Source: an uncultured Flavobacteriales bacterium
Lineage (GTDB): Bacteria; Bacteroidota; Bacteroidia; Flavobacteriales_G; Salibacteraceae
Direction of reading: 5' to 3'
DNA length: 42,569 nt
Assembly (NCBI GenBank): GCA_913062955.1
Contig: CAJXZP010000032.1
Location: 1 to 42,569, forward strand
A model generated the notes under the pieces. The model was given only the letters and a program-made list of their open reading frames with translations. It ran no database searches and was not told where the DNA came from. Within the stretch, counting starts at the first letter, position 1, and the number at the start of each line of letters is the position of its first letter. The translations under genes and the position numbers were made by a program. Below, one piece after another: positions 2,245-9,789 of the stretch.

Positions 2245-4137
2245 TTAGGGATTAAATCTTCGTGCCTGTTTAATATATAATGTTCTGTTGGGTCCCGCAA
2301 TCTTAAACTCCACGTCCATGGCGAACGAATGGAAATCTTCCAATTGCAGGGTTTGATTGTAAAAGAATTTTTTAATTTTTTCCAATTGGTTGGCTAAGTT
2401 CAATATTTCCTTGGCGGTCATTACCAAGGTGCCCTGATGAATATTAGAAGTCGTTATGATCTCAATGGTATTGTTTTCGTCATACATATTGTTTAAGGTG
2501 TTGGGGTAACAAATAAACTGATCGCAAATAACCCCTTTTGTTGGTTTTACCACCGATTCGTTACCCAATTGGGCATTTACCACATAGCCAAAATAACTAT
2601 CACGGTACAGGTTTTTTGTGATGGCAACCCCATTGACATGTTCCTTAGGAAAAGAACGATGAACCAAAATGCCCATGTAAACGGTATGTTGATTTATTCC
2701 GTAATATTCACGTTCCATAAAGGCCGCATACGACCATAAACTGGCCCAAACCTTTTTGATGGCTTCATCCACGGGTTTGTCCATGTCCTCAATAATACCT
2801 GTTTTGGAAGTGTATAAACCAGCTCCCGAAAAACCATCCATATCTTCTGCATTGGTGGAAGATCGAAATCGGAAACGAGTATCTTCCCCTAGGGATTTGG
2901 CGGTTTTGGTAATGTTGGCTGCCAGCTGTTGATCTAAGGTGTAGTATTTTATTTTGTTTCGGATTTCCTTCAAAATAAATTGAATGGAATCTGAAGGGGA
3001 TTGATGCGCTCTATAAAGGAGTAATTTATGGATGAGAGATTCGGCTCCGCAGGTTTGGATATGTTGGTAATAGTAGTAAAATGGAATCGCAAATGCACTT
3101 TCGGGTGTTTTGAAATTGCTGTATTTACTGAGCTCCACTAATTGAGAGAAATTGTAGGCTTTATTCCCTATATACTTGTACGATTTCCGGTTGACTTTAT
3201 CAAGTACGACAAGAGAATCCTTCTTTAAATCCACTTTTAGGTGGATGGTTTTGGTTTTAACTTTAATCTTCGGCAGTTTTTCAAGGGGGGTTAGTTGAAA
3301 CGAGTCGTTGCTTACCCTAAAGAAAACAGGTTTGTTCTCGTATTTACGTAGTTCAATGTTAGCACTCGCATTCTTAAGAGCCATGATGGGTAAGTGCCTG
3401 TTTTGGCCCAAGATCGATAAATGACTGAGTGGTGTTTGAAATTCGGTCACAATGATTGCGGCTACTTTGGGCAATTGAATTGGGGTTTTGTTAATCACAA
3501 TAATATCTGTAGGTAAGATGGTATGATATTCTTTTTTCAAATTGGAAATGTATCGAATGGTGCCTTTGGTTTGACCATTGGAAACAGATTGAAACTGTAG
3601 ACCCGCGTATAAATCAGAAGTCTTCAATAAAGGAAGATGAGCGAAGGAGTCGGCTGCTATTTGTAAACGATGACTATTTAAAATAAACTGAAGATTGGAA
3701 TCCATAAATGTATGGGTGAGGGTGGCACGATACAGTTTTTTGATATTTTCGGCATTCATCAAATCACTGGGTGAAAGTTCCAGAAAATACGTGTGTGAGC
3801 TATGGAGGTGATTAATGTTTGCTAGCAGGTATTCTCTTTTACTGGAATGGGAATAATTGATATCGTTGAAGGTTCCTAGGGGTTGGTAGTTCTTTAATAT
3901 ACGACTGCAGAACTCATGGTGAAACTCAAAGTCTTGGGCATTTAAAAAATAGATTTGTTCGGTATGTATATCATAAACCAGTTTCACGGCATCAATTTGG
4001 CCATATTTACCCGAAATAGGTAAACCACTCAACTGTTGGAAATCGGATGGGTTTTTCAATTGGGTCAAATAGGATTGGGCTACGCTTATAGAACAATACG
4101 AAATTGTGAGCCACAATAGAAAAATGGTTTTTTGCAT
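2245..4137 (-). CDS. Exported PEP/pyruvate-binding (PPDK N-terminal-like) protein with phosphohistidine swivel domain
   Basis: The 630-residue protein begins with a clear Sec signal peptide (hydrophobic core residues 5-18, likely cut after SVA near residue 20). Residues about 180-260 resemble the swivelling phosphohistidine domain of PEP-utilising enzymes, with the candidate His239 in TEFQTPLSHLSIL. Residues about 320-630 match the ATP-grasp domain of PEP synthase/PPDK: a Lys326 loop (GNKAYN), the RFRSSTNAEDMDGFSGAGLY segment near 423-442, and the closing LYIKQAR. The TIM-barrel PEP site is missing, and the His domain comes before the ATP domain rather than after it. Predicted export is odd because ATP is scarce outside the cytoplasm. 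The family call is good; substrate and role are unknown. The gene stands alone. Confidence 0.8.
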   Translation of the reverse strand: MQKTIFLLWLTISYCSISVAQSYLTQLKNPSDFQQLSGLPISGKYGQIDAVKLVYDIHTEQIYFLNAQDFEFHHEFCSRILKNYQPLGTFNDINYSHSSKREYLLANINHLHSSHTYFLELSPSDLMNAENIKKLYRATLTHTFMDSNLQFILNSHRLQIAADSFAHLPLLKTSDLYAGLQFQSVSNGQTKGTIRYISNLKKEYHTILPTDIIVINKTPIQLPKVAAIIVTEFQTPLSHLSILGQNRHLPIMALKNASANIELRKYENKPVFFRVSNDSFQLTPLEKLPKIKVKTKTIHLKVDLKKDSLVVLDKVNRKSYKYIGNKAYNFSQLVELSKYSNFKTPESAFAIPFYYYYQHIQTCGAESLIHKLLLYRAHQSPSDSIQFILKEIRNKIKYYTLDQQLAANITKTAKSLGEDTRFRFRSSTNAEDMDGFSGAGLYTSKTGIIEDMDKPVDEAIKKVWASLWSYAAFMEREYYGINQHTVYMGILVHRSFPKEHVNGVAITKNLYRDSYFGYVVNAQLGNESVVKPTKGVICDQFICYPNTLNNMYDENNTIEIITTSNIHQGTLVMTAKEILNLANQLEKIKKFFYNQTLQLEDFHSFAMDVEFKIAGPNRTLYIKQARRFNP

Positions 4138-4281: not shown

Positions 4282-5766
4282 CTAAAAGCGATAAACTATC
4301 CCGGCATTTATACCGTAATAGAGTACCTGTGGGGAGATCGTGGAATTATCTGGGTAAACGGAATTTAAGTTTAGTTTCATTTGTGGACGCACACTCATCC
4401 ACCAATGATCATTTAGTCCGTACGAAATTTCTGTTCGCACTAAGAAATTGGCCTGGAACGAATTGAAATCTTTACCGCTTGAAATTTCTTTAGCGAACGG
4501 ATCTAAGGAACTAAAATAGCTTCCCTTGGAATTTATGACGGTTCCAATACTAATTCCAGAGGATACCTGTAGGTTGAATCTATTCATACCGTAGTTGTAG
4601 GTGAGTAAAATAGGAACTTCAATGGTTTGGACTTTATGGGAAATTTGCTCTTTTTGAGAAACAGTATCCATCTCACGTACATAAATATCGGTGAGGATGG
4701 TGTCAAAGGTGTTTGGGTAATAGTACCAGCCTCCTAACCACCAAACTCGATTGGTCACGGTTTGAATGTCTTGTTCTTCGGTCCAATAACTATTGTCAAT
4801 AGTACCTTGGTATTGGTGTTGTTGTGAAACCTGAGTTTGAGACCATGAAATTCCCGATTGAATACCCCATCGTTTTTTGAATAAGTATTCGGCCGTAAAT
4901 TCGATGTTTCGATCCGTAAAATTGCTGGAAATCAACGCGTTTTGGGTCGGTTTATTTTGGCTCCAAAGAAAACCTCCCGACAAACGCAGTGTGAGTGGGG
5001 TATAGATTCGTTTTGGTTTCACCTCAGGCTTTGGGGCAAACGTTTGCTCCCTGTTTTCAAGAGGTAATATTCCTAATGGAAAACTGTGCATATACTTCAA
5101 TGATGTGATCTCTAAAGAGGAGTTCCAAGTCGTGTATTGCGCTTCGGCTTTATTAAATGGAAGTCCTTTTTGAATTGCGGTCTTATTTATAGTTGGGATA
5201 ATATGTTTTTGGCCCGGTATCGATTTGGAAATGAGTGTCGAATTATTTACCGGTGTATTCGTTGGTTCTGAAATGGTAAAGCTCTCAGGATTCACCTGGT
5301 TTTTCGAAGCAGTGAAAAAGCTAGTAGTCGTATTTACAGCGGTAGAACTCTTTTCTTTTGGTGTGAATTGGGTTGTACTACTAGAAACGAGTTGTTTTTC
5401 AATTTTTGCCGTAGGGGTGACTGTTGGGCTTTCTTTTAGGGAAATAGCCATTTTATGTTTTTTAATTTTAGTAGAGATAGAGTTCTCGGCAATTAATTTT
5501 GTAGGCTGTTCCATTGAAAGAATGGATGGATCTATGGCCATTTTTTCATTTTCAGGAGTAGAATCTAAAAACAAAATAGCGGAAAGGCCCAAGACCGCAA
5601 TGGTACCCATGAGAACTAACGGACGCGCATAAAATGGTACTGGAGCCACTTTACTGGCTTGTATCATTTGCTGTGCTTCTTGCCAATAGCCAGGAACAAA
5701 TTCATGTTCTTCTGCGCTAAAAGCATCCTTAAATAACTCGTCTAAGTTTTTATCACCTCTACTCAT
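4282..5766 (-). CDS. Putative anti-sigma-like protein: inner-membrane helix plus C-terminal beta-barrel
   Basis: The 494-residue protein has a short acidic cytoplasmic head (LDELFKDAFSAEEHEF) of the kind found in Bacteroidetes anti-sigma-like barrel proteins. One transmembrane helix follows at about residues 48-67, then a Ser/Thr/Lys-rich linker to about 260. A C-terminal region of alternating, aromatic-rich strands ends in Phe (GINAGIVYRF), typical of an outer-membrane beta-barrel (PorT/OMP_b-brl type). Its ATG overlaps the stop of the upstream ECF sigma gene by four bases (ATGA), so the two are translationally coupled. I infer that the head binds the sigma factor. No peptidase or known anti-sigma domain name can be assigned with certainty. 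Confidence 0.7.
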   Translation of the reverse strand: MSRGDKNLDELFKDAFSAEEHEFVPGYWQEAQQMIQASKVAPVPFYARPLVLMGTIAVLGLSAILFLDSTPENEKMAIDPSILSMEQPTKLIAENSISTKIKKHKMAISLKESPTVTPTAKIEKQLVSSSTTQFTPKEKSSTAVNTTTSFFTASKNQVNPESFTISEPTNTPVNNSTLISKSIPGQKHIIPTINKTAIQKGLPFNKAEAQYTTWNSSLEITSLKYMHSFPLGILPLENREQTFAPKPEVKPKRIYTPLTLRLSGGFLWSQNKPTQNALISSNFTDRNIEFTAEYLFKKRWGIQSGISWSQTQVSQQHQYQGTIDNSYWTEEQDIQTVTNRVWWLGGWYYYPNTFDTILTDIYVREMDTVSQKEQISHKVQTIEVPILLTYNYGMNRFNLQVSSGISIGTVINSKGSYFSSLDPFAKEISSGKDFNSFQANFLVRTEISYGLNDHWWMSVRPQMKLNLNSVYPDNSTISPQVLYYGINAGIVYRF

Positions 5767-6332
5767 ATGGCGATTGCTTTATTAATGTTTAACGAATGGG
5801 TGATCATCACCTTTAATTTTTTTCTGGCTTCGGCTAGTAACCATTTTGAAGTACCCAATGGAATATCCATGAGTTCCGCAATTTCTTTATGGTTATAGCC
5901 ATCTAATACATATAGGTTAAATACTTCTTTTTGAGATGTCGGGAGTTTGTGAATAAATGACTTTATATGATCGACATCGATTTGTTGGGTAATCTCATTT
6001 AATGAAAATGTATCAAAAATTTGGTCTTCCGAATTGAAATCGGTCGGAACAAATAATTGTTTGTTGGTTTGTTGACTCTTGTACTCGTTAATAATGGTAT
6101 TGATCATTATTTTTTTTATCCATCTATCAAACGGTACTTCCGTACGGTATTTGGACATGTTTTGAGTGATTCGCAAAAATGCCTTGTTTAAAACAGGAGC
6201 CGCCTCTTCTTTGTTTCTAAAATATCTCACGCACACCGACATTAAGGGTGAAAAGCAAAGCTTATACAAGGTGTAATAAGCTTTCTCGTCTCCTTTAATA
6301 CATTGTTTTAAAAGTGAGCGGTCTAAATGCAT
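5763..6332 (-). CDS. ECF-type RNA polymerase sigma factor
   Basis: The 189-residue protein shows sigma region 2 at about residues 5-85 (KGDEKAYYTLYKLCFSPLM, then FDRWIKKIMINTIINEYK) and region 4 at about 125-175 (LPTSQKEVFNLYVLDGYNHK, then the helix-turn-helix IAELMDIPLGTSKWLLAEAR). There is no region 1 or 3, as expected for an extracytoplasmic-function sigma. It directs RNA polymerase to a dedicated promoter set. The downstream overlapping gene encodes a membrane-anchored probable partner. The gene upstream on the same strand, 64 bases away, encodes a T9SS cargo protein, which could be a target or just a neighbour. Confidence 0.92.
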   Translation of the reverse strand: MHLDRSLLKQCIKGDEKAYYTLYKLCFSPLMSVCVRYFRNKEEAAPVLNKAFLRITQNMSKYRTEVPFDRWIKKIMINTIINEYKSQQTNKQLFVPTDFNSEDQIFDTFSLNEITQQIDVDHIKSFIHKLPTSQKEVFNLYVLDGYNHKEIAELMDIPLGTSKWLLAEARKKLKVMITHSLNINKAIAI

Positions 6333-6347
6333 TGAGAATTGAAAACC

Positions 6348-6371
6348 GGGAGAACTACGAATAGTTCCCCC
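6348..6371 (-). promoter_or_regulatory. Hairpin with TTCG tetraloop before the sigma gene
   Basis: Two 10-base arms (6348-6357 and 6362-6371) pair except at one position. On the minus strand they close a TTCG loop, one of the most stable RNA tetraloops. The hairpin sits between the T9SS gene stop (6397) and the sigma ATG (6332). It is followed by only a weak T stretch (GGTTTTC). It could be a leaky terminator or attenuator between the two genes, or a 3'-end stabiliser. The function is inferred. Confidence 0.5.
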
Positions 6372-6396
6372 GATGTTACTAACTATAAACTATCTT

Positions 6397-8121
6397 TTAT
6401 TTAACGAATTTGTAGTTGGAAATATTTCCGTTATTCTGAATGTTCAGAATGTAAATTCCTTCGTTCAAATTAGACGTATTCATTTTTAAAACGTTGGTTC
6501 CCGATTGGGAAACCGTTTGAATTACTTTGCCTGTGACATCTATTAGGGTGAAAGTAGCCTCTCCCGAAATTTGCTCGCCTAAATCAATAGTAAGCTCATT
6601 AAGAACCGGGTTTGGATATAACTTCAATCCGGTGAACGCCACACTTGGAGAAATTCCAGTAGTGATACCTACATCTACTGTGGTGCTATTTACAGTCACT
6701 CCAATTTCTGAAGTTCCAGGAGTGCTCGCAGTTAAAGTCACCACTAATGGGCTGGTAACTCTTCCTTGAACTTCTGGATATACCGTATATGTTCCAAATG
6801 GAAGGTTGCTTATTTGGAATGTTCCTTGATTGTTACTATACGTGTACGCTACCGGATTGTTATTTTGATCGTATACCATGATGTTGATGTCAGAAATAGG
6901 ATCTCCCGTTTTGTTCGCTCCTTGAGAAACCGAACCACCAATGAAACCTGGTCCTCCGCTATTTGTTCCAGCGACTAATGCAATATCAATATTGTTTAAA
7001 TAGGGCATATTTAATAATAGATTGTTTGCGTTACTCCAAAGTAAAGCTCCACCTGGTAAAGCAGGGGTACCTCCGTGGTAAGTCGGTAAATAATTCGTGA
7101 AATTACCAGAGTTTGGACTCAAAGCAGCCTTTACCAAATAATTACCGTATACTACATTTGAAAAATAATACATTCCAAGAGAGTCAATTTGGGTGGTATC
7201 TACCATAGAAAGAATTCCATTTGAGTCTAGCGTTATTAAGAATACAACTCCAGCATCTGCATAGGTACTACCCATATCGATTACTCCTGAAATAGAACCA
7301 AAAGCAGGACCTCCAGCTATAGTGATGGTTGCATAACTTGTATCAAAACAGGGGCTTATAGGTGTCCCGATAGTACATAATACGTGGAAGGTACCTCCAG
7401 AAGAATATACGTGAGTTGGCGAAGCGCTAGTAGATGTATTTCCATCTCCAAAATCCCAAAAATAAGGTAGGGTAGCACTCGGTGTGTTAGGTACAAAAGA
7501 GTAGGTGTTTCCTTGATTGGTATAGGTAAATGAGGCATCACAATTTGTACCTCCAATGCCGGTAACTACTACGGTGTTGGTCACCGTGTCTGAACACCAA
7601 ATACTATCCATAAAGATACAGGTGACATTATAGGTGCCATTTGCAGTATAGGTATGTGAAGGGGTATTAGTTCCCCATGCGACTGATCCATCTCCAAAAT
7701 CCCAATCATACGAATAATAACCAGGAGGAGCCGTTGGCGTTCCTGTGGGTGTAAATGTAAAACTTGGAGAACTCCCCGAAATCATAAAGGCTGCGGTACA
7801 AGATGATCCGGATATAGGTGGAACAATAATGGATAAGGAATCCACGTCTCCACACATATTGATACTATCCCCAAAATAGGCAATTACGGCATATGAACCG
7901 GCTGTTGTATACGTATGTGATGATGTTTGACCACTACCGTAGGTCCCATCACCAAAGTCCCAGCTATGGTATTGCTGTAAACTTGTAGGATTGGTGGAGG
8001 TAAAGGTAAATGTGGCCCCCGAATTGGACGCGCTAATTGTTCCGGTACATTGTGCGCTCGCCCACTGGGTAGTGAGAAGGGCAAATGCCAGAAGTAAAAA
8101 AGAGTTTATTTTTTTCATCAT
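6397..8121 (-). CDS. Secreted PKD-repeat protein with T9SS type A sorting domain
   Basis: The 574-residue protein has a signal peptide (ends WASAQC, about residue 24). Three PKD domains follow at about 30-100, 110-188 and 194-268, each with the WDFGDG signature and an HTY/HVY strand. Two carboxypeptidase-regulatory/SdrD-like beta domains follow at about 272-360 and 393-480 (NNQGTFQISNLPFGTYTVYP). The last 80 or so residues are a Por secretion tail (LKLYPNPVLNELTIDL, GIYILNIQNN, YKFVK). The protein should be exported through Sec and type IX secretion, and held on or released from the cell surface. No catalytic domain is seen; an adhesive or structural role is inferred. It lies just upstream of the sigma gene. 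Confidence 0.92.
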   Translation of the reverse strand: MMKKINSFLLLAFALLTTQWASAQCTGTISASNSGATFTFTSTNPTSLQQYHSWDFGDGTYGSGQTSSHTYTTAGSYAVIAYFGDSINMCGDVDSLSIIVPPISGSSCTAAFMISGSSPSFTFTPTGTPTAPPGYYSYDWDFGDGSVAWGTNTPSHTYTANGTYNVTCIFMDSIWCSDTVTNTVVVTGIGGTNCDASFTYTNQGNTYSFVPNTPSATLPYFWDFGDGNTSTSASPTHVYSSGGTFHVLCTIGTPISPCFDTSYATITIAGGPAFGSISGVIDMGSTYADAGVVFLITLDSNGILSMVDTTQIDSLGMYYFSNVVYGNYLVKAALSPNSGNFTNYLPTYHGGTPALPGGALLWSNANNLLLNMPYLNNIDIALVAGTNSGGPGFIGGSVSQGANKTGDPISDINIMVYDQNNNPVAYTYSNNQGTFQISNLPFGTYTVYPEVQGRVTSPLVVTLTASTPGTSEIGVTVNSTTVDVGITTGISPSVAFTGLKLYPNPVLNELTIDLGEQISGEATFTLIDVTGKVIQTVSQSGTNVLKMNTSNLNEGIYILNIQNNGNISNYKFVK

Positions 8122-8271
8122 TTTTGTTTTAATGTTGTTACAATAATTATTAAAGGTCGACTTTCATATACATAGACAAGTTCAAAAGAGTAAAGGGTTG
8201 GTGAATTTGAAAAATATATATGATACGTTTCCAAAACGTACTGTGAATCACTGAAATAGATCAAAAATTAC

Positions 8272-8302
8272 TTGTTAAATTTTATCCGTAAACCTACTTT
8301 TG
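8272..8302 (+). promoter_or_regulatory. Bacteroidetes-type promoter for the barrel gene at 8356
   Basis: TACTTTTG at 8295-8302 matches the -7 box TAnnTTTG, and TTG at 8272-8274 lies 20 bases upstream as a -33 element. Transcription would begin near 8309, giving a leader of about 47 bases. This is a consensus match only. Confidence 0.6.
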
Positions 8303-8355
8303 GAATGGTAATTGCTAAATGAAAACCTTTTTTACTTATATAAATACCTTAATAC

Positions 8356-9789
8356 ATGCTCAAATTAATAACGATCCTTGGAATCTCCTTGCTTTCCTAT
8401 ACGCTCCTTGCTCAGGATTCTGCTTCCTCCAGTTTTAGTATCAAAGATTTCTCCTTACGAGATTATGAAGCACCTGATATTCGGTTTAAACGCCTTAATA
8501 TAGGAACTAATATGAATGGCTATGGTAGAGGTCATGGGGATTACTACAGCGATAGTCACAATGGAGATTTACGAATGAGTTTATATCTGTATGGTAATAC
8601 AGATGTCTACCAAGGAAGTAGTTCTGCCTCTGTAACCTATAGATGGCAATTGTATAACAGAAGGGATACGCTATATCAAGATAAATCGAATTATCATCGT
8701 GTTTTTTTAAATTACTCATCTATCAATAGGTGGTACGTTTCAGAAAAACACTTTTTTGCAATTCACCCCAGGGTATCTTATCAGCACGGTTTAAACACTG
8801 GGAAATACCGTCAGGATACTGTTTATCAGAACAGTAGGGATATTGAGCATGCTATTGACCTTTCTGTTTTTTTAAGTATGGGTTCTGGGCGTATTCAACC
8901 TATTGCGCCAGCTAGAGAAGCTTTAAATATCCTGATTTCATTAGAAAGGCACAATAGGTTGGCTGTAGCACCTGATTCAACTGCTATCGATTCTTTAGCC
9001 CGAATTGCAAATAGAATACAATACAAAAGATTTTACGATAGGCGGTTTAAACGTATTTATCAATTGGAAGAACTAGATAAAGGTTTGCAAGAAATGGGCT
9101 TAGTCACCCATCCAGATATGGTGTATGCGGCTAACTTAAGTGATATATGGAATTATGGAACTAATTATTCCCGAGGCTCTGGATCTCGCTGGGAAATTGG
9201 TGTAGTCCCAGGGGTGAAATATTCATTTAAAAAGCAATTTCAAGATGAAAATACGAATGAACATTTGGGAGAAGGATCTAACATTAGTGGCTACGGCTTT
9301 GTGGGATGGACAAAAAAAGTACCATTATCATTTTCGTTGCAGTCTGATTTTTCGGCAATTATATCTGCTGGATACTCGGATAATAAATCGAATTCAACGT
9401 ATGAAATTCAGGATACTACGGGTGTTACCTCACAAATGATTAATGTAAATTATACCTTGGGGTATTATCCAAATACCCGAACTTATTTGGGCGTTACTCC
9501 TTCCGTGACTGTTTCAGCAAATCAAATGAACTCACCGGAAGAAAAGGAGGAGTACTTGGGAATGACTGCAGGTATTCGACTAAACAGTTATTATTACGTG
9601 TCCCCCAGGTTTAGGCTGAGTTTGAATGGGAACATGAGTGCTTTGTCTGATGACTATTTAAATCAAGGCCCACTTCCGTCATCAATTACTGGAGGAATTC
9701 CATTAGCGATCGGAGGTAATGAAAATCTTACGGGAGAAAATAAACTTTCTTTCAGTTATGGCTTTAGTATAGGTTATGCATTGTTTTAA
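8356..9789 (+). CDS. Outer-membrane beta-barrel protein of unknown function
   Basis: The 477-residue protein starts with a signal peptide (MLKLITILGISLLSYTLLAQ). It contains many short alternating strands rich in Tyr, Trp and Ser (SSASVTYRWQLYNR, HPRVSYQHGLNTGKYR, TYLGVTPSVTVSANQ) and ends in a terminal Phe (SIGYALF), the usual barrel insertion signal. A helical, charged segment at about residues 180-245 (LISLERHNRLAVAPDSTAID onward) interrupts the strands. I recognise no specific family. It stands alone between a consensus promoter and a strong terminator. A porin-like or structural role is possible but not shown. Confidence 0.75.
   Translation: MLKLITILGISLLSYTLLAQDSASSSFSIKDFSLRDYEAPDIRFKRLNIGTNMNGYGRGHGDYYSDSHNGDLRMSLYLYGNTDVYQGSSSASVTYRWQLYNRRDTLYQDKSNYHRVFLNYSSINRWYVSEKHFFAIHPRVSYQHGLNTGKYRQDTVYQNSRDIEHAIDLSVFLSMGSGRIQPIAPAREALNILISLERHNRLAVAPDSTAIDSLARIANRIQYKRFYDRRFKRIYQLEELDKGLQEMGLVTHPDMVYAANLSDIWNYGTNYSRGSGSRWEIGVVPGVKYSFKKQFQDENTNEHLGEGSNISGYGFVGWTKKVPLSFSLQSDFSAIISAGYSDNKSNSTYEIQDTTGVTSQMINVNYTLGYYPNTRTYLGVTPSVTVSANQMNSPEEKEEYLGMTAGIRLNSYYYVSPRFRLSLNGNMSALSDDYLNQGPLPSSITGGIPLAIGGNENLTGENKLSFSYGFSIGYALF

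Follow-up and report, generated by a model that had tools for sequence, protein, structure and literature searches.

A predicted exported dikinase-like protein with ATP-grasp and phosphohistidine domains, and its association with DUF4956 and VTC-like genes

The locus and its genes

The window analysed here is the whole stretch of 42,569 nucleotides, contig C32 of a draft genome (3.9 Mb, 95.8% complete). It carries a real open reading frame (ORF) on the minus strand at 2245-4137; an earlier interpretation made from the letters of the window, hereafter the sequence-only reading, had given no strand. At E 0.001, no PPDK_N protein other than its product was found in the draft genome. The features of the gene and of its upstream neighbours are as follows (RPH, rifampin phosphotransferase).

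2245..4137, minus strand: whole gene for the putative exported ATP-grasp/phosphohistidine protein; 630 aa plus stop, ATG start
4075..4137, minus strand: signal-peptide-like leader, residues 1-21, MQKTIFLLWLTISYCSISVAQ; from the sequence and the leaders of homologues
3604..4074, minus strand: N-terminal domain, residues 22-178; without a Pfam match or an informative PDB fold match
3274..3603, minus strand: phosphohistidine swivel domain, residues 179-288; PF22973 below cut-off, VIA-align match to the RPH swivel
3421..3423, minus strand: codon of His239, the predicted phosphorylated histidine, in QTPLSHL; H in 38/38 rows
2257..3174, minus strand: ATP-grasp (PPDK_N) domain, residues 322-627; PF01326, profile match to PEP synthase and RPH PDB chains
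3160..3162, minus strand: Lys326, counterpart of RPH Lys22; K in 38/38 rows, alignment to PDB chains
2842..2865, minus strand: RSSTNAED motif, from Arg425 (counterpart of RPH Arg117) to Asp432; alignment and conservation
2260..2268, minus strand: C-terminal QAR motif, Gln624-Arg626; sequence and conservation
4282..5766, minus strand: upstream neighbour, 494 aa, 144 bp from the gene; one membrane segment by eye, OMP_b-brl_2 just below cut-off
5763..6332, minus strand: ECF sigma factor gene, overlapping the start of the gene for the 494 aa protein; order common to three same-genus loci

The ECF sigma factor and the 494 aa protein (4282-6332) may form a sigma/anti-sigma pair to which a barrel has been fused. 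In the window and in two loci of the same genus (L044 and L045), the order is PKD-type protein, ECF sigma factor, barrel-type protein and dikinase-like gene; the order of the PKD, sigma factor and barrel genes was not seen in the other contexts among 21 compared. Directly upstream of the sigma factor gene in the window lies 6397-8121, whose product ends in a type IX secretion tail and is matched three times by PKD. The ORF at 3-2042, which is truncated by the contig end, has at least four PAS matches and probably encodes a sensor kinase.

Domain composition

PF01326 (PPDK_N) matched residues 322-627 with an E value of 6.4e-22, over the Pfam cut-off. K326, RSSTNAED (425-432) and QAR (624-626) lie where the sequence-only reading had placed them, and its claim of intact ATP-grasp motifs holds. 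A DVE motif occupies residues 608-610. The domain preceding the ATP-grasp domain, with the candidate swivel histidine proposed in that reading, His239, was matched weakly at residues 182-282 by PF22973 (GWD1_pHisD; E 0.0022, 18 bits versus a cut-off of 27). The same family was matched at E 0.1 or better in 5 of 8 aligned relatives, the best at 1.2e-5.

None of the PEP/pyruvate-barrel families of Pfam was matched in the protein up to E 1, in agreement with the absence of a PEP-binding barrel noted earlier. PF08757 (CotH) was likewise absent among the Pfam matches up to E 1, and residues 1-181 had no Pfam match at that level, carbohydrate-binding modules included. Scores against the NCBIfam equivalog models were far under their cut-offs (84.7 versus 598 bits for NF005057; 77.9 versus 739.75 bits for TIGR01418). 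With these scores and no barrel found, we rejected an ordinary PEP synthase. The PPDK_N domain is common to the protein and to PEP synthase and pyruvate phosphate dikinase, but the protein differs from them in having no barrel match, in its inverted domain order and its predicted export as well as in its score.

The sequence-only reading had described this order as reversed. The order itself stands, with the histidine domain (179-288) ahead of the ATP domain (322-627), but its unusualness does not. In plant glucan, water dikinase (GWD), and likewise in GWD/PWD enzymes generally, the phosphohistidine domain precedes a C-terminal PPDK-type nucleotide-binding domain, and the swivel domain was matched to the GWD family in most relatives. 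Domain order alone is therefore not new, and we dropped it as a novelty.

A full-length structure model, built with 5 sequences as input, was poor (pLDDT 62.4, pTM 0.39), and much of its ATP-grasp domain was below 50. Residues 176-284 of this model were top-ranked against the RPH swivel domain 5hv2 (VIA-align Z 10.6, rmsd 2.5, 98 aligned). Other RPH entries and a chain of S. aureus pyruvate kinase (3t05, Z 10.2) tied with it, and several unrelated proteins reached Z 7-8, so that the match is to the fold and not to RPH alone. The match of residues 304-496 was to the ATP domain of RPH (Z 9.4, rmsd 3.4, 156 aligned). The N-terminal domain folded alone gave a good model (pLDDT 82.9), for which there was no Foldseek match at E 0.001 and the best Z was 4.1. 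It holds His73, invariant in all 38 homologue rows, and may be the acceptor-binding domain.

Homologues and conserved residues

Relatives were present in four contigs of Flavobacteriales and Flavipsychrobacter metagenome-assembled genomes (MAGs) and, with the threshold at E 0.001, in 9 of the 42 genomes of the order. With the threshold at E 1e-30 they were found in 25 of 395 class genomes (three of them weak matches), in 12 of the 395 genomes of a phylum draw that shared several genomes with the class draw, and in 7 of 147 genomes of family f37. All counts and the tree below refer to 38 non-duplicate homologue rows, from which we omitted four proteins of 973-1001 aa (L013, L036, L037 and L038), a partial one (L012) and an ordinary PPDK_N protein (L014). 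Against the family profile, thirty rows scored about 560 bits or higher, and the other eight form a more distant branch; judged by these sequence comparisons, the homology of the 38 rows is far above chance. Identity goes down to about 24%.

Fourteen positions were identical in 38/38 rows: H73, H239, G324, K326, R425, S426, S427, E431, D432, G440, S444, N521, Q523 and R626. S238 was kept in 36 rows, with Cys instead in L049 and L084. D608, E610 and Q624 were kept in 37, the exception being L092, which is truncated by its contig end.

The sequence-only reading had pointed to RPH for comparison, and the phosphate-holding residues of that enzyme do have counterparts here. K326 and R425 align with Lys22 and Arg117 in the PDB chain alignment, and counting onwards from Arg117 places S444 at Thr136. 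These three RPH residues are reported to touch the ATP phosphates; Lys22Ala abolished activity, and Arg117 and Thr136 mutants kept ATP cleavage and lost transfer to the drug (PMC4844700). The Glu297Ala mutant described there remains active, so conserved acids need not all be essential (PMC4844700).

The four proteins of 973-1001 aa constitute a second leader-bearing PPDK_N family. They have an SH motif before a C-terminal ATP-grasp domain and RSDT in place of RSST; most ATP-grasp residues are kept and other family residues differ.

Export

By inspection and hydropathy, a hydrophobic leader opens all 38 rows; behind it comes an AQ-type site, a lipobox-like cysteine or an apparent membrane anchor. 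The leader described in the sequence-only reading is borne out at residues 1-21 as signal-peptide-like, and it is conserved among homologues. The 11-residue hydropathy was at least 2.0 in 38/38 rows (exactly 2.0 in the window protein). The background is high: within these contexts, 2.0 was also reached by 131 of the 265 remaining ORFs that are 200 aa or longer. Hydropathy by itself is therefore weak evidence of export.

The type IX tails argue for export more strongly. All seven scanned members of the divergent branch exceed the Pfam cut-off for Por_Secre_tail, the type IX secretion signal; the eighth row of this branch, L091, is truncated by its contig end. In the same scan of nine proteins, the tail was absent from L024 (850 aa, main branch) and from L036 of the other family. 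Overall, export looks like a trait of the family. Sec-exported proteins cross the membrane unfolded; therefore any catalysis by the exported protein would occur outside the cytoplasm.

Gene neighbourhood: DUF4956, VTC and CotH

The link to DUF4956 and VTC genes and the CotH operon slot described below are new beyond the sequence-only reading. DUF4956 is a family of multi-pass membrane proteins. Of the 38 contexts, 11 had a DUF4956 gene adjoining the dikinase-like gene or within 0.8 kb of it; the other 27 showed no such adjacency, and some contexts were short (8 of 35 had less than 3 kb on one side, and L003 and L005 were also short). With 3500 genes assumed, roughly 0.02 would be expected by chance when only direct neighbours are counted, and 0.07 when three genes on either side are. 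Eight of the pairs were convergent, 3-53 bp apart (L050, L051, L063, L080, L086, L087, L088 and L089), and three were on the same strand (L056, L083 and L005). The eight convergent rows make up one clade in the tree, in which the gene is not co-transcribed with DUF4956. L056 and L083 lie apart from it, with L005 the sister of L083; the adjacency therefore arose or survived at no fewer than three points in the tree.

In the three same-strand contexts, a VTC polyphosphate-polymerase-like gene joins the pair. The order in L056 is VTC, DUF4956, DUF2490, dikinase-like gene, and that in L083 and L005 is dikinase-like gene, VTC, DUF4956. The DUF2490 and VTC proteins of L056 matched models built without them (E 1.6e-12 and 4.8e-46, respectively).

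In the window's own genome, a different contig (C2; L064:3274-8777) carries a lipoprotein-like gene, VTC, DUF4956, DUF2490 and a CotH kinase gene with lamin-tail (LTD) and type IX domains, in this order; the dikinase-like gene, on contig C32, is not beside them. L065 and L067 have the same order as L064, with CotH matches at the corresponding places. Since these three loci carry CotH after VTC, DUF4956 and DUF2490, the dikinase-like gene of L056 occupies the CotH slot. In other genomes, CotH was elsewhere near the gene set or absent. The VTC protein of the window's genome matched PF09359 at 5.4e-24, and a single-sequence search with it against PDB sequences returned nothing meaningful. Charged residues of the kind expected in the VTC tunnel were invariant in 10 of 10 aligned VTC proteins.

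Another link of the two kinase kinds was seen in G415, where the dikinase-like gene is divergent from a gene for a 1331 aa leader-bearing CotH-type protein (L079:3147-5015 and 5210-9202).

Co-occurrence across genomes

DUF4956 was present in 210 of 395 class genomes. It was detected in all 22 genomes carrying the full gene and in 188 of the 373 others (Fisher 5.3e-7, relatedness uncorrected). The gene survey and the DUF4956 survey covered 395 class genomes each, drawn evenly, which were taken as one draw with negatives partly listed. Three genomes with weak matches (G237, G345 and G384) were not counted as gene-bearing; among them only G237 was DUF4956-positive. With DUF4956 so widespread in the class and the genomes sharing ancestry, the Fisher values treat the data as more independent than they are.

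In family f37, DUF4956 was present in 5 of 6 further gene-bearing genomes versus 1 of 20 without the gene (Fisher 5.3e-4), the 20 controls being those listed among 140 genomes without a gene match and not a random sample. Two of the five, G780 and G834, had already shown DUF4956, and the part unseen beforehand was 3/4 versus 1/20 (Fisher 0.0076). DUF4956 was not found in G878, an assembly of 280 contigs where the gene is present as a match with one stop. Among hand-picked genomes, a strict count gave DUF4956 in 30/30 gene-bearing versus 9/29 other genomes; in view of that selection, we give weight to the class and f37 surveys instead. G014, which has only a match of the L013 kind, was excluded from the strict gene-bearing set; it also has DUF4956.

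Among 60 genomes searched, VTC was not matched in nine that carry both the gene and DUF4956 (G009, G115, G139, G259, G551, G579, G583, G598 and G686), and in six of these (G115, G139, G551, G579, G583 and G686) CotH was also absent. One of the nine, G009, is assembled in 350 contigs. Given these nine genomes, VTC is not essential. The control genomes of C. glutamicum and M. acetivorans had DUF4956, VTC and CotH.

Comparison with known systems

The window protein resembles GWD/PWD not only in domain order but in the PF22973 matches of its relatives. Unlike them, its family is bacterial and apparently exported, another N-terminal domain stands where GWD has carbohydrate-binding modules, and PF22973 is below cut-off. 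GWD is reported to phosphorylate alpha-glucan with the beta-phosphate of ATP (PMC7569903), and its swivel histidine to be essential (PMC12892837).

RPH and the two-component HpeHI/PpsAB share with the window protein an ATP-grasp domain and a swivel histidine without the PEP barrel. The likeness to RPH extends to Lys22, Arg117 and Thr136 (Lys326, Arg425 and Ser444 here) and to structural matches of both domains. We know of no export of either RPH or HpeHI/PpsAB. In RPH, the ATP-grasp domain comes first and the swivel is C-terminal (PMC4844700), whereas the window protein has the swivel first and RPH has a different acceptor domain. PPDK relatives with new roles keep turning up, for example HpeHI (PMC12167813) and VadK (PMC13400623). 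The literature searched gave no report of an exported ATP-grasp/phosphohistidine family of this kind.

The CotH kinases with VTC and DUF4956 partners are like the dikinase-like gene of L056 in export and in their slot beside VTC, DUF4956 and DUF2490. They differ in sequence, being unrelated to the window protein, which PF08757 does not match. In Gram-positives (streptococci, clostridia and bifidobacteria), genes for CotH, polyphosphate polymerase, DUF4956 and DUF4832 are described next to pel genes, and CotH is suggested to regulate Pel via protein phosphorylation (PMC7112168). An iron stimulon table of Bacteroides thetaiotaomicron has DUF4956 and a DUF2490 gene together (PMC10434189).

Proposed function and alternatives

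We think it probable, at roughly 65%, that the protein is a phosphohistidine phosphotransferase acting outside the cytoplasm, in the service of a surface-phosphorylation system linked to VTC/DUF4956 in which donor and acceptor are conjectural. Our confidence rests on the gene adjacency, the operon slot and the class-level co-occurrence with DUF4956. Against this reading weigh the separate position of the gene in the window's own genome, the 27 contexts with no DUF4956 neighbour, the nine genomes with no VTC match, G878 and the weak full-length model. The leader would carry the protein out of the cytoplasm, into the periplasm or to the outer membrane, and type IX secretion would take some relatives beyond these. 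Once exported, the protein would use its ATP-grasp domain to put phosphate on His239 of the swivel domain, from which the phosphate would go on to an acceptor that is either bound by the N-terminal domain or docks from outside. An envelope polymer or a surface protein is our best guess for this acceptor.

The partners would be DUF4956 and, in many genomes, a cytoplasmic enzyme like VTC-type polyphosphate polymerases, with the exported protein taking the role that secreted CotH kinases have in the commoner form of the gene set. The donor might be exported polyphosphate or ATP reaching the periplasm. VTC with DUF4956 could provide polyphosphate outside, by analogy with the yeast VTC complex, which is reported to couple polyphosphate synthesis to passage through the membrane (PMC9911596). 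Genomes with DUF4956 and no VTC would need another source, or DUF4956 might act otherwise, for example by moving a nucleotide. A tentative extension of the analogy, which we hold to be unlikely as a whole, is that surface phosphorylation is powered by polyphosphate: a VTC-type polymerase would make it, DUF4956 would move it across the inner membrane, much as the yeast VTC complex delivers it to the vacuole, and exported kinases whose folds are unrelated (CotH or the ATP-grasp/phosphohistidine family) would draw on it, or on ATP made from it, to phosphorylate envelope molecules outside the cytoplasm.

An exported GWD-like glycan dikinase, with ATP as donor and a cell-surface polysaccharide as acceptor, would make the DUF4956/VTC link merely a shared envelope function. 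We consider this doubtful. The GWD order of the domains, the PF22973 matches in 5/8 relatives and the Gram-positive gene sets next to genes of the Pel polysaccharide (PMC7112168) speak for it, but in the window protein PF22973 falls short of its cut-off, and no match to a carbohydrate-binding family was seen. Inspection of 21 contexts by eye, with most neighbours unannotated, recognised none of the shared clusters beside the gene as a polysaccharide-synthesis gene. ATP is scarce outside the cytoplasm. The sequence-only reading had also entertained a repurposed fold, a secreted protein that binds nucleotide or phosphate without phosphotransfer. In its favour, no donor supply is known outside the cytoplasm, and the low-confidence model leaves a closed pocket unproven. 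Strict conservation nevertheless disfavours this idea, which we rate as quite improbable: the residues of both half-reactions, His239 included, are identical in 38/38 rows at identities down to about 24%, and binding alone would make a swivel histidine needless. Least probable by far is a misread leader on a cytoplasmic PEP-synthase-like enzyme. Hydrophobic starts are common in the background (131/265), but every row has a signal-peptide, lipobox or membrane-anchor leader, type IX tails end all seven tested members of one branch, and the PEP barrel was not found.

Implications

The dikinase-like gene is real and conserved, and its interest lies more in its partners than in the order of its domains. 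Together, conserved export signals, conserved active-site residues and the linkage to DUF4956 point to a system, so far little studied, that phosphorylates molecules at the bacterial surface, where kinase function with scarce ATP is an open question. Beside CotH, the family would represent another kind of exported kinase, unrelated in sequence but associated with the same DUF4956/VTC genes; two folds therefore seem to meet one need. Their occurrence with these genes offers a way to test directly what DUF4956 and the bacterial VTC proteins supply. A gene that resembles 'phosphoenolpyruvate synthase' may, in such genomes, have an exported product with another function.
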